Origin: Polyangiaceae bacterium
Lineage (GTDB): Bacteria > Myxococcota_A > Polyangia > Polyangiales > Polyangiaceae
Length of the DNA: 64,000 bases
Direction of reading: 5' to 3'
Assembly (NCBI GenBank): GCA_025353725.1
Contig: JANXOF010000092.1
Location: 62,001 to 126,000, forward strand
The notes beneath the pieces were generated by a model. The model searched no databases. It was not told the origin of the DNA and worked only from the letters and a program-made list of their open reading frames with translations. Below, piece after piece: positions 3,368-17,943 of the stretch (the first letter of the stretch is position 1; each line of letters starts with the position of its first letter). A program made the translations under genes and the position numbers.

Positions 3368-4435
3368 TCAAAAGCGACCCGTAATTCCTGCTCGATCGAG
3401 GCCGAGATAAGGTGCAAAAGATGCCGTAAACGTCGCTGACCTCGCCGTCTTCGCGTTTACGCTCGGCGTCTTGGCAGCCACGCGGGATGCCAAATAGAGA
3501 TACGTTCCGGAGACGAGTCCTAGACCGCCGACGACAAATCCGACGGTGGAGACGGTACCCGCAGACTTTGCGGAGTCGAGGGTGCTCTGCTGGTTCGAGG
3601 GGCAAATCTTGTTGGCGCACGCGGCGTCGAGGTCGCTCTCCTTCGAACTTGCCATCAAACCGAACAACGCGCCCACGCCGACGCCAAGGACTCCCACACC
3701 GAGCGCGAGATAGGCTGGTACGTGGCTCGCGCGCCCGGGCGCGTCGCCTCGCGACTCAGAGGCCAACGGAGGCTCCGCGTGCGGCGTCACCACGGGCTGG
3801 GCGTTCGGATCGAGTTCAAGCGTCACGGCTATCGAGTCGACGCTCCCTTCCGCGAGGCGGATCTTCGTCACACTCATTTTAAAGCCCGGGGCAGTCGCCT
3901 CGATCACGTGCTCGCCGGGGTCCATAGGGCGGTTCGCGTTGAGGTTTGCGGCAGGGACAACGTCACCGTCGACCTTCACGAGCACACGGCTGTCCAAGGG
4001 AGCCGCCACGGCGATCTTCAGTTGAGCGAGCCGCTGTCGTGCCTCTGCGAGGACGACTTTGGCTCGCTCTTGCGCTTGAACGAACGCCGGAGGCGCCCCC
4101 TGCGGGAGCACTTCACGCGCCACACGATTTAGGTTTTCCGTCCCGTCAACGATTCTGCCGAGCTGAACTTGACATTCGCCAAGCCGTGCAAGTGTGGAAG
4201 GCGCATGAAAAAGCTTTTCGGAGCGCTGAAACTTCTCGACCGCTTCCGCGCAATTGCCCATCTCTGCGAGTTTGACCCCCTCACGCCCGAGCGCTCGCGC
4301 GGCCGAAATGGTCGCCGAAGCAGGCTCGTCTTGACCGAACGCACGGCAAGGAAGAAGGCCCACACCCGCGACGCCGAAGAGCCAAAAAGCGCCGCGCAGC
4401 CGGGGTCGTAGTCGTCGATGGATCATCCTCCTCAA
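3368..4435 (-). CDS. Exported TPR/PEGA-domain membrane protein
   Basis: The 355-residue product has an N-terminal signal sequence (hydrophobic core FWLFGVAGVGLL, Ala-rich cleavage region). A short TPR-like helical region with the NCAEAVEKF and LARLGECQ signatures common in myxobacterial secreted proteins follows. Residues about 140-205 form a PEGA-like beta domain (MDPGEHVIEATAPGFK). Two hydrophobic segments lie near residues 235-265 and 295-318, with a Cys pair (CANKIC) between them. It starts 13 bp after the kinase stop, so the two are probably co-transcribed. In myxobacteria such proteins commonly sit beside Ser/Thr kinases; their function is not established. The start is a plausible ATG, though a second Met at residue 4 is possible. 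Confidence 0.75.
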   Translation of the reverse strand: MRRMIHRRLRPRLRGAFWLFGVAGVGLLPCRAFGQDEPASATISAARALGREGVKLAEMGNCAEAVEKFQRSEKLFHAPSTLARLGECQVQLGRIVDGTENLNRVAREVLPQGAPPAFVQAQERAKVVLAEARQRLAQLKIAVAAPLDSRVLVKVDGDVVPAANLNANRPMDPGEHVIEATAPGFKMSVTKIRLAEGSVDSIAVTLELDPNAQPVVTPHAEPPLASESRGDAPGRASHVPAYLALGVGVLGVGVGALFGLMASSKESDLDAACANKICPSNQQSTLDSAKSAGTVSTVGFVVGGLGLVSGTYLYLASRVAAKTPSVNAKTARSATFTASFAPYLGLDRAGITGRF

Positions 4436-4448
4436 GCAATATCCGAAA

Positions 4449-6068
4449 TCAATATCCGAGATCGGCTTCCTCGGAGGCTTTCGCGTTCGGCTTTGTGGCT
4501 GACCCGAGCGAAGGCGCCGTCGCCGAGGCGGCGACGAGGGAAGGCGCAGAGCCCCGGGTGGGCGGCATGAAAGAGGGTCGCACGCTCGGAACCGGCGGCG
4601 GCGTCACAGGAGAGGCCGCCAGCCCCACCGCTGCTCGAGTCGCGGCATCAAGGGTGGGCGCGGCCGGCACGTCGGAGGCGGCCGAGAGCACGAGCGGTGT
4701 CGCGGTGCGCGCCGCGGCAGGCTTCTCCGACGCGGTGGGATGCTCAAGCCCAAACCGGACCGCCAGCGCGAGCGGAACGCCGATGAGCACACATGCCACC
4801 AGGGCGAGGCGCGAAGCCCTGGCGTTTGGCCTCGGCGCGGGCAGAGTGGGCACAGTCGATGCGACCGCCGAAGCCTCGAGAGTCGGTGGCGCCGTCCTTT
4901 GGGCTCGGCTCGCATCCCGAACGGCCATCGCCGCGATGGGACGCTTCGCAGTGACCGTCTCGGACCGGACCGGCTCAACCGCGTCAGCAGGCAACGCCGA
5001 AGGCACTTCACTGGCAAAGCGCACCTGACTCGCGTCGATAAGTCCCGCCGCACACAAAGCCTGGCTTGCCCGCTCGGCGCAAAGCAGAGACCGGCGAGGC
5101 GCAAACGGCATGAGCGCGGTAGCCACCTCTGCGATATTTTGGAATCGCTTGCTCACATCCTTTTCGAGGCATTTGTGAAGAATCTCGGCCAGACCGAGTG
5201 GCAAGTCCGGGCAATGATCGAGGATCGACGCCAACGGCTGCTCAAGGATCGCCGCGCAGACCTCGGCGATGGACGCAGCCTTGAACGGGAGCCTTCCCGC
5301 GAGCATCTCAAAAAAGCTCATCCCGAGCGCCCAAATGTCCGAACGCGCATCGACTTTAGCCGACGCACGGAGCTGTTCCGGTGCCATGTAGCAGGGAGTA
5401 CCGACAAGGCTCATCGTCGAAGCCAACGGCGCTTCACCCGCTAACGTAGAACCCGTGAGCGCTCGCTTCGAGATTCCGAAGTCAAGCACTTTGACGATCT
5501 GCATTCCCGCTTGGGTCGTGAGAAAGAGATTTGCCGGCTTGATGTCTCGATGGATAATTCCTTTCGCGTGGGCCACGGCGAGTGCCTCACACGTCTGCAT
5601 GACGTACTCGACAGCCTCCCTCGGCCGGAGGCGCCCTCGCTCCACGATCACGGCGTCGAGGTCATCACCTTCGAGGTACTCCATGACGAGGAAGGGTTCG
5701 CCGTCAGGTGTCGAACCGACATCGTAAACACTGCAGACGTACTCGCTCCGAATGCTGCAAGCAGCCTTTGCCTCACGCGCAAAGCGGGACACAACCTCTG
5801 GTACGGCAAGCATCTCGGGTCGCAAAAACTTGAGCGCAACGCGCTCGTCGAGTTCGATGTTGCGCGCGGCGACCACGATAGCGACGCCGCCCTCACCGAT
5901 CACGCGCTCGATGAGGTACTTGCCATTAACCGTACGTCCAGGACGCGCGCCAGCCGTAAGCGGCACGCGCGCGAGAGTCTGTTTCCTAGAGTCCGAGACG
6001 TCTGCAACGGCAGCTTCCGAAGGCGGCTCGCTCTCCGGCGACTTCGAACCGAGCTGGCTCTTCGCCAT
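4449..6068 (-). CDS. Eukaryotic-like Ser/Thr protein kinase with one membrane segment
   Basis: A 539-residue protein. The N-terminal kinase domain (about residues 50-325) has the catalytic Lys in VALKFLRPE, the catalytic loop HRDIKPAN, the magnesium-binding DFG (DFGISK) and the APE-type MAPEQ segment. The glycine loop reads GEGGVA, with Ala in place of the usual third Gly. An Ala/Pro-rich region, one transmembrane helix (LALVACVLIGVPLALAV) and a low-complexity Ser/Ala/Pro tail follow, so the kinase domain is cytoplasmic and the tail external. I chose the ATG at 6068 over the TTG at 6092 because a good ribosome site (AAGGGAAGG) lies about 6 bp upstream. It is the first gene of the set with the PEGA/TPR protein and solute-binding lipoprotein. 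The phosphorylation target is unknown. Confidence 0.92.
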   Translation of the reverse strand: MAKSQLGSKSPESEPPSEAAVADVSDSRKQTLARVPLTAGARPGRTVNGKYLIERVIGEGGVAIVVAARNIELDERVALKFLRPEMLAVPEVVSRFAREAKAACSIRSEYVCSVYDVGSTPDGEPFLVMEYLEGDDLDAVIVERGRLRPREAVEYVMQTCEALAVAHAKGIIHRDIKPANLFLTTQAGMQIVKVLDFGISKRALTGSTLAGEAPLASTMSLVGTPCYMAPEQLRASAKVDARSDIWALGMSFFEMLAGRLPFKAASIAEVCAAILEQPLASILDHCPDLPLGLAEILHKCLEKDVSKRFQNIAEVATALMPFAPRRSLLCAERASQALCAAGLIDASQVRFASEVPSALPADAVEPVRSETVTAKRPIAAMAVRDASRAQRTAPPTLEASAVASTVPTLPAPRPNARASRLALVACVLIGVPLALAVRFGLEHPTASEKPAAARTATPLVLSAASDVPAAPTLDAATRAAVGLAASPVTPPPVPSVRPSFMPPTRGSAPSLVAASATAPSLGSATKPNAKASEEADLGY

Positions 6069-10374: not shown

Positions 10375-12534
10375 GTGCGGCACGCTTCTGTTCTCATGGC
10401 GGGGACGCTCAGCCTCGCGGCACTGCTAACTCTCGGGGTGGCCGAACCAGGGTGCGCCGATGACCCGCGTGACCTTTTCTCGCGCACCGTCGCGCCCGAC
10501 GCGGGCACCGCCGATCCGCGCTCCAAGCCTCCAAAGGTCGACCCAACGCTCGGCGGCCCGTGCACGGAGGATTCGCAGTGTAACGACGCTCTCGCGTGCA
10601 CGTTCGATAGCTGCGACCGCGAACTCAGGCGCTGTCGAACAATTCCCGACGACTCGCTCTGCGCCGACAGCTCGTTTTGCAACGGTCGTGAAACGTGCGT
10701 GCTGCGCGTCGGGTGCACCGCCTCCGCCGTGGTCACGTGTCAGGACGACGATTCCTGCACACTCGACCGATGCGTCGAGTCGACCAAGGCTTGCGAGCAC
10801 GCCCCACGCGACGTCGACGGCGACGGCGACCCTGATGACCACTGCGTGCGAAAGCGCGATTGCGACGACCTTGATCCGAATGTAGGCAGCCAACGTGCTG
10901 AGATTTGCGGCAATCTTCGCGACGACAATTGCAACGGGCTCGTCGACGAAGCCGGATGCGTGCAACCTGCAAACGACGTGTGCGCGACAGCCCTCGCGAT
11001 CTCAGCTTCCGGTACCTACGCACTCTCGACACGGGCAACGAAGAAAGACTATGGCGCGACCTGCTCCGTGGCGACGCCAAGCAGCGCCAAGGATGTCGTC
11101 GTCGCGATGCGCGTTCCCGGCGGCGTGGGAGACCCCGCTCGGGACGTCGAGGTCTGGGTGACCGCGGACGTCGCGACGAACGAGGTCGCCGTGGCGCTCC
11201 AACGCACCTGCGGCGATGCCGCGAGCGAACTCGGGTGCGGGCACGTCGACCGATCTCCCTCCGCGAGGACGATCGCGCGCGCCGTGCAGCCGGGTACCGT
11301 ACTTTACGCCGTCGTGACCACGCAGACGGAAGGCTTTGCCACCGTAAACGTCGACTTTCGTGCGTCGAGCCCGAAGTCCTCCAACGAAGGCTGCGCGGCG
11401 CCGGAGGCTGTCGCGCTCGATGCCCCGACCGTCGTGCGCCTCGTCGACGCGGAAAGGGACCTTGAAACCGACTGCGAAAAGGCGAAAACAGGCGAACTTG
11501 CCTATTCGTTTATGCTGGCCGAGCCACGCGACGTACGAATTTTTGCGTCGACGCTCGTGGGCGCCGGCGTCCCCGTGGTGACGCTGCGCGACGCGGACTG
11601 CACGCGCGAGGTTCGCTGTACGGAGTCGCCCTCACGCCCACTTTTCGCGCGCGGGCTCGACGCTGGAAGGCACGTTTTCAGCGTGGCGGCCACGCAGCCC
11701 ATCGACGCGAGCGTGCTCGTAACAGCGTATCCGCCGACGGCGGCGCCGGCGAACCAGAGTTGCACAACGGCGCCCGCTATCGAGCCAAACACGACCCTCG
11801 CCGTCGACCTTTCGGGCCATGAGGCCGCCCTCAAAAGCGGCTGTTTTGCAGGAGGCTTAGCCGCCGCCTACGCACTCACACTTGCACGCGCGAGTGACGT
11901 GCTGCTGATCGGCCGATTTCCCGCCAACGAATCTGGCTCGTTGGCCCTTCACGGGCCGTCGTGCGCGCCGGGCGGTGTCCTGGGGGACGGCTGCGCGGTC
12001 GGTGTGTCGCCGCAGCGCGTGAGCGGCCGGAGCGTTCCCGCCGGAGACTACCGCGTCGTTGTGGCCGACGAGCTAGGCCAGACCGCTCAACTCTCGGTGC
12101 TCGCGCGCGACGCCGTCCCGCCGACGACCGTAGGCGCGTCCGACACGTGCGCCGCAGCCTTCGTGCTTCCCGCCGCGGGCGGCTTTTTTACGGGAGATAC
12201 GTCGAACGCCGCGGCGGACTACAGCGCCGGGTGTGACGCTCCGGGGCAGCCACTAAGCGGCGCCAAAGATCAGATTCTCAGGCTCGATCTCGCGGCGTCG
12301 CGGCGAGTCGTGATGGACATGACAGGGTCGGCCTTCACGACGGTCCTCGATGTCCGAAAGGGCGCCGTGTGCGGGTCGGCCATCGAGGTCCCAGGCGCGT
12401 GCTTCGTAGGAAAGGGATCCGGAAAAAGCTTCCTCGACCTCACCCTCGGCGCGGGCACGTACTGGCTTCAAATCGACGGTTATGCCGGCGAATTCGGCCC
12501 GTGGAGTCTCGACGTACGCGTCCTGCCTCCGTGA
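10375..12534 (+). CDS. Large exported Cys-rich protein with MopE-type metal-binding motif and repeated beta domains
   Basis: A 719-residue protein with an N-terminal export signal ending at a Cys (VAEPGC), which may be a loose lipobox. Residues about 55-135 are Cys-rich with the DALACTFDSC / DDSCTLDRC pattern typical of myxobacterial surface proteins. A putative metal-binding motif of the MopE type follows (DVDGDGDPDD, RDCDDLDP, DDNCNGLVDE). The remainder comprises about four beta-rich repeats of roughly 115-130 residues, each opening with an NDxC-, NExC-, NQSC- or SDTC-like element, resembling PPC-type bacterial domains. The GTG at 10375 is 3 bp after the zinc-ribbon gene; an in-frame ATG at 10396 is the alternative. 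It is probably an outer-membrane or secreted protein. Ligand and function are unknown. Confidence 0.78.
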   Translation: MRHASVLMAGTLSLAALLTLGVAEPGCADDPRDLFSRTVAPDAGTADPRSKPPKVDPTLGGPCTEDSQCNDALACTFDSCDRELRRCRTIPDDSLCADSSFCNGRETCVLRVGCTASAVVTCQDDDSCTLDRCVESTKACEHAPRDVDGDGDPDDHCVRKRDCDDLDPNVGSQRAEICGNLRDDNCNGLVDEAGCVQPANDVCATALAISASGTYALSTRATKKDYGATCSVATPSSAKDVVVAMRVPGGVGDPARDVEVWVTADVATNEVAVALQRTCGDAASELGCGHVDRSPSARTIARAVQPGTVLYAVVTTQTEGFATVNVDFRASSPKSSNEGCAAPEAVALDAPTVVRLVDAERDLETDCEKAKTGELAYSFMLAEPRDVRIFASTLVGAGVPVVTLRDADCTREVRCTESPSRPLFARGLDAGRHVFSVAATQPIDASVLVTAYPPTAAPANQSCTTAPAIEPNTTLAVDLSGHEAALKSGCFAGGLAAAYALTLARASDVLLIGRFPANESGSLALHGPSCAPGGVLGDGCAVGVSPQRVSGRSVPAGDYRVVVADELGQTAQLSVLARDAVPPTTVGASDTCAAAFVLPAAGGFFTGDTSNAAADYSAGCDAPGQPLSGAKDQILRLDLAASRRVVMDMTGSAFTTVLDVRKGAVCGSAIEVPGACFVGKGSGKSFLDLTLGAGTYWLQIDGYAGEFGPWSLDVRVLPP

Positions 12535-13107: not shown

Positions 13108-13797
13108 CTACCGCAGGGGTTGTAGGCGGAGCACAAACCGGCCGAGCACCCCGCCGATCATCGAGAGAAGGAGCGCCGGTAAAACATGGGCGAGCATGCC
13201 GTGGAGCGCGGCGGCGTGCGCACACCGCAGCGTCGCGAGAGCCACCGTGTAAGCCCCCGCTGTCATTCCTAACGCAGCCCCCGTCACCGTGGGGTGGACG
13301 GGGTCGGTCCCGCGTTTTAGAAGCAGCCACACCACGAGGGGAAGCGATCCCTGAATCACGCTCATCAACCCGCAAGCGAGGTCCGTCGCACGACTTACGT
13401 GCTCGCCTCCGAGATCGGGCCACGCCATAGAGGCTCCCCAGATGGCCATCGCCAGCAGCAGCGCAGTCAGCGCAAGGGCCGACACCAGAACCACGCGCGG
13501 TCGCCCAAGCATCGAACCCGGCTGACCGGAAGAAAGACGCGTCATGGCGGCCGACGCAACAAGAGCGAAACCGAGGAGGAACGCGACCATCTCGAACGGG
13601 CGGGCGCCTTGTGTCGGCCCGCCCATGCCGAGGAACAGCCCGCACGTCGCCAGCGCGCCAACGCCGGCGAGCCAGGCGGCGCGACGCGTGTAAACAGCAC
13701 GGGCTGGAGACGGCGTCCCCGCTATCGCTTCGAGCACGCGAGCTCGAGCGCCAGCATCAACGGAGGAAGATCGCCCGGCGGTATCGTCGCTCGTCAT
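13108..13797 (-). CDS. NrsF-like (DUF1109) membrane anti-sigma factor
   Basis: A 229-residue integral membrane protein with about six hydrophobic helices starting near residue 40. The C-terminal half carries the family layout: a HPTVTGAALGMTAG segment, then a Cys four residues before an alanine-rich helix with a conserved His. Its start overlaps the stop of the ECF sigma factor by four bases (ATGA), which is the usual position of the cognate anti-sigma factor. In Caulobacter and Cupriavidus, NrsF/CnrY-type proteins of this family hold an ECF factor at the membrane until a signal releases it. Binding to the adjacent sigma factor is inferred from gene order; the signal is unknown. Confidence 0.82.
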   Translation of the reverse strand: MTSDDTAGRSSSVDAGARARVLEAIAGTPSPARAVYTRRAAWLAGVGALATCGLFLGMGGPTQGARPFEMVAFLLGFALVASAAMTRLSSGQPGSMLGRPRVVLVSALALTALLLAMAIWGASMAWPDLGGEHVSRATDLACGLMSVIQGSLPLVVWLLLKRGTDPVHPTVTGAALGMTAGAYTVALATLRCAHAAALHGMLAHVLPALLLSMIGGVLGRFVLRLQPLR

Positions 13798-14450
13798 GGC
13801 GCGTCCCTGAGGTGGTCCGCCGCGAGCTCGCCGAGCACTTCGCGCATCGCCTCGTACGCACGGTGTGCGCGAAGCTTCACGGCAGCCACGGTCGTTCCGA
13901 GCACTTGAGCCGCCTCCTTTACCGTCAGACCGTCCTGCTTAATGAGCTCAAACGCCATGCGCTGGTTTTCGGGAAGTCGCGCCAATTCCTGCGTGAGACG
14001 AGCTGCAACCTCTTTCGCGACGACGACATCGTCCGCGCGATCGTCCGTGGAAGCGAGCGGGCGAATCGCGTCATCGAAGTCGACGGGAGCAAGCACTTCC
14101 CGACTGCCGCGTCGATGAGAATCAATGAGTAAGCGCCGCGCAATGGCGAAGGCCCACGGCACGACTTGCGCTCCTACAAGAAACCGACCGCGAGCACGGT
14201 GAATCTGGAGCATGGTCTGCTGAACGACGTCTTCAGCGCGCGCTCTGTCACGCGTGTAACGTGCAAGAAATCCGTAGAGGCGAGGTGCGAGACCGTCATA
14301 GAGTTCGGCAAACGCGCTGTCGTCACCCGTCGCATAGCGATCCATTGCGGCGTTAAGGTGCGAGGCTGACGACGACCGCGACGCACCATGCGTCTCCGCT
14401 TCCGACTCCGACGCGCACGGTGTGCGAGGCGCGTTTGAAGGGTCTGCCAC
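13794..14450 (-). CDS. ECF RNA polymerase sigma factor (NrsF-coupled)
   Basis: Region sigma-2 begins with YATGDDSAFAELYDGLAPRLYGFL and continues through DRARAEDVVQQTMLQIHRA; a linker and region sigma-4 follow, with LPENQRMAFELIKQDGLTVKEAAQ and the helix-turn-helix segment VLGTTVAAVKLRAHRAYE. It would direct RNA polymerase to a small regulon. The start is uncertain: sigma homology begins about 100 residues into the longest frame (ATG at 14651), and I used the GTG at 14450, which leaves a short Ser/Ala-rich lead. No start has a good ribosome site. The gene is translationally coupled to the NrsF-like gene downstream. Confidence 0.85.
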   Translation of the reverse strand: MADPSNAPRTPCASESEAETHGASRSSSASHLNAAMDRYATGDDSAFAELYDGLAPRLYGFLARYTRDRARAEDVVQQTMLQIHRARGRFLVGAQVVPWAFAIARRLLIDSHRRGSREVLAPVDFDDAIRPLASTDDRADDVVVAKEVAARLTQELARLPENQRMAFELIKQDGLTVKEAAQVLGTTVAAVKLRAHRAYEAMREVLGELAADHLRDAP

Positions 14451-14854
14451 ATGAGTTTGCGGACTCAACACCACGTGCGTCGTATCACGGAGGAGCCAGC
14501 CCATGGAGGAAGCTACATCCACCGACAGCGACAAGGCGGAAAAGGCGAACATGGCGTGGGGCTCACGGAGCATTACGCCGCATTGGGCAAGAAGTTTCGA
14601 CGGCTCGCGGCTCACGAATGCCACAGCCGTGACAGCCGGTGACTGGGACATAGCCGAACCAGTCGATGTCGTTTGTCCTCATCGGCGGTGAGTTGAATCT
14701 CGCCCATGCGCCGCGTCGCCGAGGAAAGAAGGCCGAAAAAAGAAGCTTAGAGCCGGTAGCCTACGTTCTGCGCAGGCCTTCGGCGCGTATGTTGCTGCGC
14801 ATCCCGAGAAGCGATGCCCAACAGAAGTGCGCCTGGCAGGAAGACACGATCGAC
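14451..14854. other. Intergenic region between divergent ECF sigma and outer-membrane protein genes
   Basis: About 400 bp with no recognisable gene. It may include the 5' end of the sigma gene if the longer start at 14651 is used. I looked for ECF-type or TTGACA-type promoters and saw none convincing on either strand. Confidence 0.5.
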
Positions 14855-15520
14855 ATGAGCCGCGGAGCTGCCATCGCGGCCCGAGGCGCGCTCATCGCTT
14901 CTCTGTTCGGCACAAGCTCGGCATTCGCCGACACGACAGCGACCGAGGGCGCTGGCGTCGACTGGTCGCGGGTACTTGTCGAGTTCGACGCTCTTGCGCG
15001 TCGCGGCGCGGATGTTCTCGATAGCCCACGCTGTAGTCGTGCAGGTTGCCAGACGGAGACGAACGTGACGGCCGCTCGTCCGGAACGCGCGATTCGTTTT
15101 GACGTCGAAGAAACGTCGAAAGCTTGGTTCGGCATCCAGCCACGACTCACGCTCGTGGCACGCGATTGGGCCGGGTCTTTTCGTGTCGCAGGCGACCGTC
15201 TGGCACTTGTCGACGTCATGCGCCTCACGACTTCGACGCGCATGGTGCTCACTCGGGTGCGCGTAACGAACGCCCGTGTCGCGCCGTTCGCGCAGATCGG
15301 GCTTGGCCAATGGCGCACCGATCCCGCGCTCATGCCACACACCGCGCGGTATGAAGAGATCGCAGCTCAAGTCGCGCTCGGGGTCGAGATCCGAGTCAGC
15401 AGCGCATGGGCCTTAGGCGTCGAGCAGACAGGAACGATGCTGCACCGTGAACGCGGGGACAATAGCTTGCCGTGCGCCCGCATGTGGAGCTCCGCGCTGG
15501 CGTCGCGCCTCGAGTTCTAG
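14855..15520 (+). CDS. Small exported protein, possible outer-membrane beta-barrel
   Basis: A 221-residue protein with a clear signal peptide (RGAAIAARGALIASLFGTSSAFA). It has one Cys pair (CSRAGC) near residue 65, then alternating hydrophobic/hydrophilic strands and a C-terminal Phe (SRLEF), as in many outer-membrane barrels. I chose the ATG at 14855 because it gives a normal signal peptide and an AGGAAG lies about 13 bp upstream; the same frame is open further left without a signal peptide. It converges on the caspase/barrel gene, whose C-terminal part looks similar in style, but I found no clear sequence match between them. Function unknown. Confidence 0.62.
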   Translation: MSRGAAIAARGALIASLFGTSSAFADTTATEGAGVDWSRVLVEFDALARRGADVLDSPRCSRAGCQTETNVTAARPERAIRFDVEETSKAWFGIQPRLTLVARDWAGSFRVAGDRLALVDVMRLTTSTRMVLTRVRVTNARVAPFAQIGLGQWRTDPALMPHTARYEEIAAQVALGVEIRVSSAWALGVEQTGTMLHRERGDNSLPCARMWSSALASRLEF

Positions 15521-15574: not shown

Positions 15575-17155
15575 TTACCAGCGCTTGCCGAGTCCCACGC
15601 CCGGACGAAGAGCAAATGACGCGACAACCTCCGTACGGTCTCCGCCGGTGCGTGAAAGAGAAAAGACATAAACCTGAGCCTCGACTTCGCCGAAAACGTA
15701 GACCCCGCCCACGAGATCTCGCGTAACGCCTATTCCGGCGCTGCCCTCGCCTGCGAGCGACATGCGATCTGGGGCGACGCCGCGCGTCGTAAACGATTGG
15801 TGAAGAGTCGCCATGGCAAGACCCACGCCAACGTCGAGGGTTACAAACGGCGTATCCCACGACCGAACGACGTTGAGCCCAAGCTCCACCTCGTCACTCC
15901 GTGCGCCAAGCGTCGCATTGTCGAACGTGCTCCGGCACACACCAGCGCGTGGCACGAGACTGAGAGCACGAAAGTCAATTGGATACCCAAAGAAGACCCC
16001 GTGACATAGCGAGGCCGCATTCGCAAGTGGAGTTCGGACGCGATAACCGACTTGAGGCCCGTGCACTATGGATACGTCGCTCCCGCCTTTGCGAACGAGT
16101 CGCGCGTACGCGACACGGTGAAGAAGTGCGTCGGCCACAATCCGGTTTTCGCCGGCGTCGACACGGAGCTCACCCTCGAGGAGAAAAGAAGCGCCGCGGC
16201 CGCGGACAAAGTAGCGACCGGGCTTCACCGTGAGGCGCCGGCTAACGTCCCGTTCACCGACCTCGCCGACGACCGATCCGTCACTGGACGCTGCCATCAC
16301 GAGGTACGAAAGCGCTTGAGGAAAGAGGAGAGACGACCGCGACGCGCCGTGAGCGGTAAGATCCGTGAGCACCACGTTGCCCTGACCGCGTAAATCAAAG
16401 CGGAACGACGGATGCTGCGGCCCCACCCACGACTGACTCGTCGCGCGAAGGGTCGCGTCGTAGGCGTGGCGATAGGCCTCTTCGAGGACGACCAACCCGT
16501 CTCCATTTGAATCCGCCGCGCCGAGGAGTCCGCTCACGAACGCGTGCGTGAAGAATGAACCTTTGAGCGTGTCGGACTCCTGCGCGTCTTCGTTCGCGGC
16601 CGTCGACGTAAGCACAACCATGCCTTGTCCGGCCAACCGGTCGTCCATTTCGATCGCGAACGGGGCCGTCGAACGCCCGCCTTTTGTGCGCGTTATCGTG
16701 CCTGAACGACACGCGTCGATCACGAGTAAGCGCAGCGTCGCGCCTGACTCCCGTACGGTTTGTTCGATTTCGGCGAGCGCGAGCGTCGATTCGCCAAGAT
16801 GCAGCGCGCCGGCGTCGGCGTGGCCCGAATAAAAAACGAAGAGCATGGTTTCGGCCGCGCCGTTCATCCGCCGTATGCGATCATTGACATTGGCGAGCGT
16901 GTGCCGCACGGATTCCGCGTTCTCTCCGCGAAGCAGCACGGAGTTTGCCGGTGAAAACCCACCAAGGTCCTTCAACACCTCCTGCACACGGGATGCCTCA
17001 GCCTCCGCGTAACGGAGTTCGGTGTCGCCGCGTGCGCCTACGTTATTGCCAAGAATGACGGCAAATCGCTCGACACTCGCGAGCGCGTGTGACGAAGTGA
17101 GGAGAGCGGTGAAGGCCACAAGCCACGAAAGCCATCGCACGCATCCGCGTGGCAT
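15575..17155 (-). CDS. Exported caspase-like (C14) protein with C-terminal beta-barrel-like domain
   Basis: A 526-residue protein. A signal peptide (WLSWLVAFTALLTSSHALA) is followed by a caspase p20-type domain at about residues 28-270 with the catalytic pair His112 (YSGHAD) and Cys149 (IDACRSG). A short beta domain (KPGRYFVRGRG) follows, then about 200 residues of alternating strands with aromatic ends and a terminal Trp, which looks like an outer-membrane barrel. The ATG at 17155 overlaps the anti-sigma stop by one base (TGATG); the longer frame back to 17200 would run into that gene. It is the third gene of the sigma / anti-sigma / caspase operon. Caspase-like (metacaspase or paracaspase type) proteins cleave after basic residues or Asp; the specificity here is unknown. 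Confidence 0.82.
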   Translation of the reverse strand: MPRGCVRWLSWLVAFTALLTSSHALASVERFAVILGNNVGARGDTELRYAEAEASRVQEVLKDLGGFSPANSVLLRGENAESVRHTLANVNDRIRRMNGAAETMLFVFYSGHADAGALHLGESTLALAEIEQTVRESGATLRLLVIDACRSGTITRTKGGRSTAPFAIEMDDRLAGQGMVVLTSTAANEDAQESDTLKGSFFTHAFVSGLLGAADSNGDGLVVLEEAYRHAYDATLRATSQSWVGPQHPSFRFDLRGQGNVVLTDLTAHGASRSSLLFPQALSYLVMAASSDGSVVGEVGERDVSRRLTVKPGRYFVRGRGASFLLEGELRVDAGENRIVADALLHRVAYARLVRKGGSDVSIVHGPQVGYRVRTPLANAASLCHGVFFGYPIDFRALSLVPRAGVCRSTFDNATLGARSDEVELGLNVVRSWDTPFVTLDVGVGLAMATLHQSFTTRGVAPDRMSLAGEGSAGIGVTRDLVGGVYVFGEVEAQVYVFSLSRTGGDRTEVVASFALRPGVGLGKRW

Positions 17156-17943
17156 CACGGACGAGCACGCTTGTCTAGCGTTTGACGGCCGACGGAACAC
17201 CCGACGGGGGCCGGAGTACGCGAAGGATCCGCCTCGATTCCGCGGCGGACCGCCTCAAGCGGAAGCGGCGCATCACAGAAAATTCCGAAGAGCACTTCCT
17301 CGCCCAGTGTGTCGTCGAGGAGGGTGCTCGTCGGCAACGCCACGCTGTCACCAGCCGCCACAAACGCCGACGTCTCGCCCGCCTCTGGAGAGTAGACGCT
17401 CGCCTTGCCCGCGCCGTCGAGGCTGAAAATGGCAAGATAACGCGGCGCGCGCGCGGTGTAAGCAAAGCGAAGCAAGTCGCCCGGGTAGACGCGCATGCCC
17501 GTCACTCCCTCGGTCACGTGCGGCCCTCGCTTGACGAAGAACGTCATGCGCTCGCTTCCTTTCAGGCGAACGCCGTCGGGCACGTCAGGCCGACTTTGGA
17601 GAAAAAGCGTGGTCATCGCGGCGATGGCGAGCGCCCCTCCGAACGCCACGGCCTTCGCGGAAGCCGGGAGGCGCATGCGAAGGCCTGAGCGTGAGCTTGA
17701 CGAGGCGATGGCGGTTGCGTTGGGCGACGCGACGGCGGTTCGTCTCGTCAGCGGTGGTGCACTTTGCAAGTAAGTTGTCCTCGCGGCGTCCAGATCGTTG
17801 AACCGAGCCGTGCAACGAGAACAGGTGGCGAGATGTGCATGCGCGCTCGCTCGCGACGCCGCGGTGAACTCGCCAACCATAAGCTTATCCATCTGCAGGT
17901 CCGAAAGGCACTGACGGCTACGTGTCTGGCTAAGTGTCGTCAC
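17155..17943 (-). CDS. Zinc-finger anti-sigma factor with DUF4384-like external domain
   Basis: A 262-residue single-pass protein. The N-terminal about 60 residues contain the anti-sigma zinc-finger pattern HLATCSRC with an upstream His. A transmembrane helix follows at about residues 100-125 (AVAFGGALAIAAMTTLFL). The external region has the FFVKRG, VYPGDLLRF and PRYLAIFSLDG pattern of DUF4384-like domains, which often sit beside caspase-like proteins. The GTG at 17943 overlaps the sigma stop as GTGA; the longer frame back to 18015 would overlap the sigma gene by 75 bases. It should hold the neighbouring ECF factor at the inner membrane and sense something outside; this is inferred from domain layout and gene order. 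Confidence 0.82.
   Translation of the reverse strand: MTTLSQTRSRQCLSDLQMDKLMVGEFTAASRASAHAHLATCSRCTARFNDLDAARTTYLQSAPPLTRRTAVASPNATAIASSSSRSGLRMRLPASAKAVAFGGALAIAAMTTLFLQSRPDVPDGVRLKGSERMTFFVKRGPHVTEGVTGMRVYPGDLLRFAYTARAPRYLAIFSLDGAGKASVYSPEAGETSAFVAAGDSVALPTSTLLDDTLGEEVLFGIFCDAPLPLEAVRRGIEADPSRTPAPVGCSVGRQTLDKRARP

Follow-up and report, generated by a model that had tools for sequence, protein, structure and literature searches.

Why would a bacterium encode a caspase-like protease that appears to be held in its outer membrane, beside the genes for a sigma factor and a likely inhibitor of that sigma factor? The locus lies in a 64,000-nucleotide stretch of DNA (the window) from a Polyangiaceae bacterium (assembly GCA_025353725.1, contig JANXOF010000092.1, positions 62,001 to 126,000), whose genome comprises 6.6 Mb in 98 contigs. 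A preliminary description of one of its genes had pointed to a signal peptide, a caspase-type active site and a C-terminal beta region that would anchor the protein in the outer membrane, and had not noticed the operon context, which carries most of the functional meaning. The gene belongs to a tightly packed module with the order lipoprotein, extracytoplasmic function (ECF) sigma factor, zinc-finger/DUF4384 anti-sigma factor, caspase-barrel. Our favored reading, to which we assign a probability of about 0.4, is that the caspase is anchored in the outer membrane, faces the periplasm and acts within this four-part module as a site-1 protease that, once a signal arrives, cuts its partner anti-sigma factor.

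Caspase-like proteins of bacteria are often discussed in terms of cell death. A caspase held at the outer membrane, with its gene next to those of a sigma factor and a probable inhibitor of it, would speak for signaling from the envelope to transcription instead, where the protease may switch on a gene program by cutting the sigma inhibitor. If this is true, a component of the outer membrane carries the initiating protease of sigma-factor activation, and a trans-envelope route couples the state of that membrane to transcription. The reading names a concrete substrate and bond, K128-G129 of the anti-sigma factor, in a module found in many Myxococcota genomes. Feature coordinates are collected in Table 1.

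The gene is a real reading frame at the place described (Table 1). The signal peptide that had been claimed is likely, given a hydrophobic stretch at residues 12-21 and an Ala-x-Ala ending at residue 26, a call made by a simple rule of thumb with a hydrophobicity scale. The following domain is by sequence a member of C14, the caspase/metacaspase superfamily: Peptidase_C14 (PF00656) covers residues 30-215 with E 1.1e-11 and 45.3 bits, the cut-off being 21.4. In VIA-align this part of the model scores Z 19.6 with procaspase-7 and Z 18.6 with metacaspase 4 of Arabidopsis (AtMC4). As to the p20 and p10 regions of a type I metacaspase, the sequence match to solved metacaspases spans only residues 25-114 and the structural alignment residues 25-268. 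The His112/Cys149 pair is intact, as stated before: S110, G111, H112, D147 and C149 are all invariant across 45 aligned homologues, and a loose Gly-His ... Asp-x-Cys spacing pattern occurs in 78 of 78 unique homologues. The dyad pattern was also read in 29 of 35 more distant caspase open reading frames (ORFs). The six others comprise three cut by contig ends, the second ORF of L177, L167 (which has Thr-Gly-His with Asp-Ala-Cys) and L142. In this last case (4108-5919) the Cys and a T-R-H-K-G-G loop are kept and Gly-His is found nowhere, so the protein is perhaps a pseudo-protease. The sole NCBIfam match at E <= 1 is to the EACC1-associated caspases (NF047832; E 8.4e-19), and at 67.9 bits it falls far below the curated cut-off of 140. 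A defense-system reading was set aside: the PADLOC ‘caspase’ model matched only at E 0.0039, and the operon neighbors are regulatory.

Past the active site lies a loop of EF-hand type, a candidate calcium-binding site. The AlphaFold2 model places it between helices 201-213 and 224-240. Its first and last ligand positions, D215 and E226, are invariant in the 45 aligned homologues, and the pattern recurs 30-110 residues past Asp-x-Cys in 76 of the 78 unique homologues (one of the two misses is truncated there) and in 24 of the 35 more distant ORFs. Pfam EF-hand_5 gives weak matches in 16 of 45, the best at E 0.031.

Does the C-terminal part form a membrane barrel? AlphaFold2 was run on an alignment of 27 sequences (A1) and returned a model with mean predicted local distance difference test (pLDDT) 80.3 and predicted template modeling score 0.67. 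It has strands at residues 368-374, 384-390, 399-412, 417-434, 439-456, 464-480, 485-501 and 508-524; from residue 361 on, mean pLDDT is 84-96 in 14 of 17 ten-residue blocks and 78, 74 and 66 in the remainder. A Foldseek search of the PDB placed outer-membrane barrels and caspases intermixed in the top ranks. Among the barrels were OmpA-short 9fzc at rank 1 (E 3.1e-7), NspA 1p4t (1.7e-6), Ail (3.2e-6), OmpX (5.5e-6) and OmpW (1.4e-5); a MALT1 caspase-Ig3 entry ranked second, and the VIA-align rows for MALT1 end at residue 264, so that an Ig-type reading of the middle beta domain was set aside. By VIA-align, residues 360-526 align to NspA with Z 18.1 (151 aligned, 2.9 Å), and residues 349-526 to a Legionella porin with Z 18.3 (162 aligned, 2.0 Å). 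In the 27-sequence profile the beta-periodic hydrophobic moment stands 3.8 standard deviations (SD) above shuffles for residues 355-526 and 4.3 SD for 375-526, compared with 1.8 SD for residues 28-260 and 0.9 SD for 265-355, outside the barrel. The last residue is Phe or Trp in 29 of 45 untruncated homologues (47 were listed, two of them truncated). The modeled C-terminus has the eight-stranded fold of the OmpA/OmpX/NspA type, a likeness that appears to be one of fold and not of family membership by sequence.

Several observations weigh against a barrel. A final Phe or Trp is missing from 16 of the 45 untruncated homologues, including four Sorangium proteins and a close relative whose last residue is Leu. 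At E <= 1 the Pfam barrel profile OMP_b-brl leaves the window protein unmatched and hits 10 of 45 relatives (best 6e-5), and in more distant, longer caspases there is one weak match in ten. With this structural support and these weak Pfam matches, the barrel is a prediction well backed by structure and poorly by sequence profile. A soluble C-terminal beta domain, which would make the protein a free periplasmic protease, draws on the same missing Pfam match and missing terminal aromatic residues. It leaves unaccounted for the eight mostly high-confidence strands, the outer-membrane barrels at the top of the PDB matches and the homologues that do end in Phe or Trp. We consider it very improbable, and it was set aside after the AlphaFold2, Foldseek and VIA-align results. 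The prediction thus gave a barrel-type domain, not a soluble one, and the anchoring of the caspase in the outer membrane that had been proposed is supported, as a prediction, by all three programs. The ‘C-terminal 200 residues’ of strands held as to the alternation and the final Trp and need dividing into two units: residues from about 262 to 349 make up a separate small beta domain, and those from about 360 to 526 the predicted barrel.

In barrels of eight strands the chain starts and ends on the periplasmic side, and the lumen offers no room for a domain. Because both barrel ends face the periplasm, the caspase should be periplasmic. The active site had been put in the periplasm or outside; on this topology the choice would narrow to the periplasm. 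The outer-membrane location and periplasmic topology are thus both predicted, by way of the model. The protein had further been called unlike the usual cytoplasmic metacaspases of bacteria, which is too strong: 104 of 671 prokaryotic metacaspases (15%) have a predicted transmembrane (TM) helix, which in many cases may be a signal peptide (PMC3501461). For the Myxococcus xanthus outer-membrane proteome, Tables 3 and 4 of PMC3222651 give 54 proteins with barrels and 44 lipoproteins, and no entry bears the name caspase or C14; the tables neither support nor refute the placement, because many entries are ‘hypothetical’ and metacaspase tags could not be mapped.

Table 1. The caspase-barrel module and its sites in the window
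Feature	Position	Strand	Remarks
Lipoprotein-like protein, 237 residues	18445..19158	minus	Cys after hydrophobic stretch, then AQ-x3-Y-x-GE
ECF sigma factor, 164 amino acids	17940..18434	minus	PF04542 E 1.7e-12; PF08281 E 2.7e-9
Anti-sigma factor, 262 amino acids	17155..17943	minus	likely GTG start at 17943; GTGA overlap with sigma stop
Anti-sigma TM helix, residues 94-116	17596..17664	minus	
Anti-sigma stalk motif R126-L-K128-G129	17557..17568	minus	candidate cleavage site, between K and G
Caspase-barrel gene	15575..17155	minus	ATG start; stop codon included; 526 amino acids; final residue Trp
Predicted signal peptide, residues 1-26	17078..17155	minus	cleavage after Ala-Leu-Ala
Caspase (C14) domain, residues 27-260	16376..17077	minus	Pfam and VIA-align
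Catalytic His112	16820..16822	minus	motif YSGHA; invariant in 45 aligned
Catalytic Cys149	16709..16711	minus	motif DACRSG; Asp147 two residues ahead; invariant in 45 aligned
T-R-T-K-G-G, residues 155-160	16676..16693	minus	candidate self-processing/pseudo-substrate site; flexible loop after Cys149
EF-hand-type loop D215-S-N-G-D-G-L-V-V-L-E-E226	16478..16513	minus	candidate calcium site
Small beta domain, residues about 262-349	16109..16372	minus	AlphaFold2 model
Predicted eight-stranded outer-membrane-type barrel, residues 360-526	15578..16078	minus	C-terminal Trp; AlphaFold2, Foldseek, VIA-align, beta periodicity

The genes around the caspase suggest what it may act on. Its ATG overlaps the anti-sigma stop codon by one base (TGATG), and the stop codon of the lipoprotein-like gene lies 10 bases ahead of the sigma start. 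The anti-sigma factor combines an HxxxCxxC zinc motif (here HLATCSRC), one TM helix and a periplasmic DUF4384-like domain. DUF4384 (PF14326) scores at its cut-off of 27 (26.9 bits in the protein scan, 29 bits in a six-frame genome search), and zf-HC2 falls below cut-off (E 0.018). Across 65 such partners the zinc motif is present in 58 and a TM-like stretch in all 65. The motif and the single helix agree with a class I zinc-finger (ZAS) anti-sigma factor. This zinc-finger/DUF4384-like protein is likely to inhibit the ECF sigma factor. The lipoprotein-like protein has no Pfam match.

The arrangement is widespread. Among the neighbors of 78 unique homologous caspases, picked by similarity and with flanks as short as 1.5 kb, the anti-sigma factor was found for 65, the sigma factor for 61 and both for 60. 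Because the flanks are short, the 18 caspases without both partners are an upper bound: when longer flanks were fetched again for six of these seemingly solitary caspases, all six had both genes downstream, and therefore at least 66 of the 78 stand with a sigma factor and an anti-sigma factor. The lipoprotein family was found at 61 of 106 loci, beside 44 of the 57 caspases with usable flanks. Of 317 genomes from the class, 139 have the caspase family at E <= 1e-30, as do 124 of 377 drawn from the phylum; records of Sorangium, Polyangium and Minicystis are among the module holders.

The window's own genome holds a second, diverged module (G000:C54, about 2.1-6.0 kb; L002, L051) with an ECF sigma factor, an anti-sigma factor whose stalk reads T-L-K-G, not R-x-K-G, a 530-residue caspase ending in Phe, and the lipoprotein downstream. 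The lipoprotein family is found twice in this genome, once at each caspase module; on its own the second copy matches weakly (E 0.0015), and with a profile strongly (E 2.8e-29).

The caspase and the anti-sigma factor share a motif, R-x-K-G. In the caspase it follows the catalytic Cys, in a loop (residues 151-193) that is disordered in the AlphaFold2 model (pLDDT < 50). The caspases carry it as T-R-x-K-G; R156, K158 and G159 do not vary among the 27 sequences of A1, and the motif survives a change of loop length in distant members (DACRSGALTRVKGG vs DACRATREKGF). In the anti-sigma factor it lies on the stalk: residues 118-127 are disordered after the TM helix, the first strand of the periplasmic domain begins at 132, and the motif stands at the junction. 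In 38 anti-sigma sequences G129 is invariant and R126 and K128 are conserved at >= 90%; these three, the zinc-motif residues, A109 and D210 are the most conserved positions. The strict pattern was counted in 63 of 78 caspases, a count that overlooked shorter caspase loops, and in 56 of 65 stalks. With the looser [KR]-G the counts are 93 of the 94 caspase loops that could be read and 104 of 105 stalks, from a scan over a span of residues that, for L155 and L166 at least, stopped at a site ahead of the likely one.

Presence of an Arg two residues before [KR]-G is associated between the partners in 92 pairs (61/5/16/10; Fisher p 0.0008, with relatedness not controlled). These pairs are what is left of 105 rows after removal of 13: six lacked a caspase, five had unread loops, and the pattern was missing from one loop and from one stalk. 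In one pair (L034) Arg replaces Lys before Gly in both partners. As a comparison, 13 other C14 proteins were taken from five related genomes, with no sigma factor or zinc-finger anti-sigma factor within the short fetched regions. None has R-x-K-G in the approximately 20 residues past the catalytic Cys; the looser R-x-[KR]-G matches one of them (L183, with R-x-R-G).

What does the shared motif mean? It may have arisen twice for unrelated reasons, as a structural turn that opens the DUF4384-like domain in the anti-sigma factor and as a piece of active-site loop shaping in the caspase. Short motifs can converge, the stalk motif sits three residues before the first strand, and K-G is kept in six anti-sigma factors with no neighboring caspase. 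Against this, the caspase motif survives insertions and deletions. Also, at two loci from two genomes (L186, L189) the gene after that of a C14 protein encodes a DUF4384-like protein that has a lipoprotein-type Cys and no zinc finger, with no sigma match in the fetched stretch, and there R-x-[KR]-G is absent from both the DUF4384-like partner and the printed caspase loop. We regard the unrelated origin as unlikely. The C14 proteins of L186 and L189 have hydrophobic-looking C-terminal ends, and the loci represent a second way in which a caspase and DUF4384 are paired.

We favor a functional link, in which the stalk motif looks like a copy of the caspase loop motif placed in the partner. Metacaspases cut after Lys or Arg (PMC9622860). 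In AtMC4 a lysine of the linker, Lys225, lies between the catalytic residues and keeps the active site closed until calcium triggers cleavage; Ser84 and Asp137 belong to the pocket that holds it (PMC7206013). S110 and D147 are their counterparts by motif position relative to the His and Cys. Given this precedent and the invariance of both residues, the motif in the caspase loop resembles a site of self-processing or a pseudo-substrate. Since R-x-K-G is present in both partners and metacaspases cleave after Lys or Arg, the anti-sigma factor is proposed as the substrate of the caspase. In 23 orthocaspases of cyanobacteria DUF4384 and a caspase domain are joined in one protein (PMC8283722), and there is precedent for the reaction: Csx29, a protease of the caspase clan, cuts Csx30, the inhibitor of an ECF sigma factor (PMC10028731).

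The proposed sequence of events is as follows. At rest, the TRTKGG loop would occupy or guard the Lys/Arg-specific pocket. Envelope damage, calcium at the EF-hand-type loop, or a change in the barrel or the lipoprotein would provide the activating signal. The active caspase would then cut the anti-sigma stalk between K and G of R-x-K-G, just outside the inner membrane, and the periplasmic domain would be shed. A general site-2 protease would finish the anti-sigma factor and so free the sigma factor. In its fully specified form, with an outer-membrane-fixed caspase as dedicated site-1 protease, a self-shutting R-x-K-G loop opened by calcium or the envelope, a cut after the Lys of R-x-K-G and a trans-envelope route used across the Myxococcota, the proposal is tentative and somewhat doubtful. 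Domain order, the intact dyad, the predicted barrel fold, the operon and the conserved motifs were computed directly; from them we infer proteolytic activity, the cut site, the signal and the reach of the outer-membrane-held protease to the inner-membrane stalk.

A number of points tell against the caspase as site-1 protease. Activity, cleavage and localization are all matters of prediction, from sequence and model. Reach is a problem, because a protease held at the outer membrane would have to act on a stalk that lies at the inner one. For CgMCA-I, which residue occupied the cleavage sites made little difference in vitro (PMC9622860). Arg at P3 is mismatched in 21 of the 92 pairs. The L142 caspase lacks Gly-His, therefore catalysis is not needed in every module.

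A further point comes from anti-sigma factors that stand apart. Forty anti-sigma regions were fetched, at least four of which (L168, L173, L176, L178) had a listed caspase nearby, the rest being chosen because none was seen listed; 34 hold a caspase of the family. The six that do not are L139, L140, L144, L151, L156 and L165, the last at a contig edge. All six keep the stalk K-G, four as R-x-K-G, and therefore the stalk motif does not depend on an adjacent caspase. It may be structural, or cut by something else. Four of the six genomes (G044, G178, G179, G290) hold family caspases elsewhere. The other two, G063 and G077, have none at E <= 1e-30, and the single C14 protein of G063 is outside this family and without the motif. 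At L139 a lipoprotein gene, judged by eye, lies upstream.

The same six regions would suit a caspase that is an effector and not a switch: the sigma factor would drive its own operon, another protease would control the anti-sigma factor, and the caspase-barrel would be the output, processing other periplasmic or outer-membrane proteins or taking part in developmental lysis. The caspase gene closes the operon, its start codon overlapping the stop codon ahead of it, and metacaspases of M. xanthus have been suggested as lysis enzymes (PMC3501461). An effector role leaves three things unexplained: the R-x-K-G common to caspase loop and partner stalk, its absence from the 13 other C14 proteins and the DUF4384-caspase fusions elsewhere. 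We judge it somewhat unlikely.

A receptor that works without proteolysis is quite unlikely. Here the barrel-caspase would reach across the periplasm to bind the periplasmic domain of the anti-sigma factor and shield it from housekeeping proteases or present it to them, in the manner of the signaling domain of TonB-dependent transducers. The three-part logic would be that of FoxA-FoxR-FoxI, where the N-terminal domain of the outer-membrane receptor binds and protects the anti-sigma factor (PMC11637429); the barrel gene adjoins the anti-sigma and ECF sigma genes, and the distant partner at L142 has no Gly-His. The dyad spacing kept in all 78 closer homologues would be unexpected if binding alone were needed.

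Compared with site-1 proteolysis by DegS-type enzymes, which are inner-membrane serine proteases, the favored reading calls for a caspase-fold cysteine protease predicted at the outer membrane. The likeness to DegS-RseA-RpoE and other site-1 systems (PMC10028731) is the proposed protease-triggered release of an ECF sigma factor from a membrane anti-sigma factor. Csx29-Csx30-CASP-sigma of type III-E CRISPR shares a caspase-clan protease that cuts an ECF sigma inhibitor; Csx29 is RNA-activated, of CHAT type and part of a CRISPR complex, and the passages concerned do not describe it as exported (PMC10028731). TonB-dependent cell-surface signaling (PMC11637429) shares an outer-membrane barrel with an N-terminal periplasmic signaling domain, an inner-membrane anti-sigma factor and an ECF sigma factor, and the site-1 protease of the Fox system is still described there as unknown. 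The caspase module differs in its eight-stranded barrel, its caspase as periplasmic domain and a partner without a FecR-type Pfam match. The caspase-barrel has no Pfam match to a TonB-dependent receptor barrel with plug and STN, which places it outside the Fec/Fox group.

Caspase-like proteins have been connected with sigma factors before. Operons with a metacaspase and a sigma-70 factor were described in 2012 for four of the five M. xanthus metacaspases and for Anaeromyxobacter, Haliangium, Sorangium, Ralstonia and Fibrobacter, and OmpA-domain genes occur in 14 metacaspase operons (PMC3501461). The likeness to our module is a caspase gene and a sigma factor in one operon; the words ‘barrel’, ‘DUF4384’, ‘EF-hand’ and ‘calcium’ have no occurrence in the main text of that paper. 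Control of an ECF sigma factor by a caspase-like protein was proposed earlier for ECF54 with CHAT proteins (PMC8999054) and for EACC2-caspase genes with an ECF sigma factor (PMC8195603). ECF54 is described as lacking an anti-sigma factor, unlike this module, and the EACC2 passages name no anti-sigma factor, periplasm or outer membrane. The link between sigma factors and metacaspases is thus already published, and the four-part module with an outer-membrane caspase is the larger finding. Among open-licence PMC papers no report was found of the barrel, the four-part module or the shared motif, the lipoprotein having been searched for only narrowly.

Other genes of the window lie near the module. 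A convergent gene (14666-15520, plus strand), ending approximately 55 bases from the caspase stop, encodes a protein of 284 residues that weakly matches an outer-membrane barrel family (PF13505, E 0.0013). Beyond it, on the minus strand (13108-14651), another ECF sigma gene is followed by an NrsF-type anti-sigma factor (PF06532, E 1e-12), a separate pair close to the caspase module. The product of a plus-strand gene at 10375-12534 has 719 residues, looks secreted and carries a metal-binding motif of the MopE type (PF11617, E 3.1e-8).

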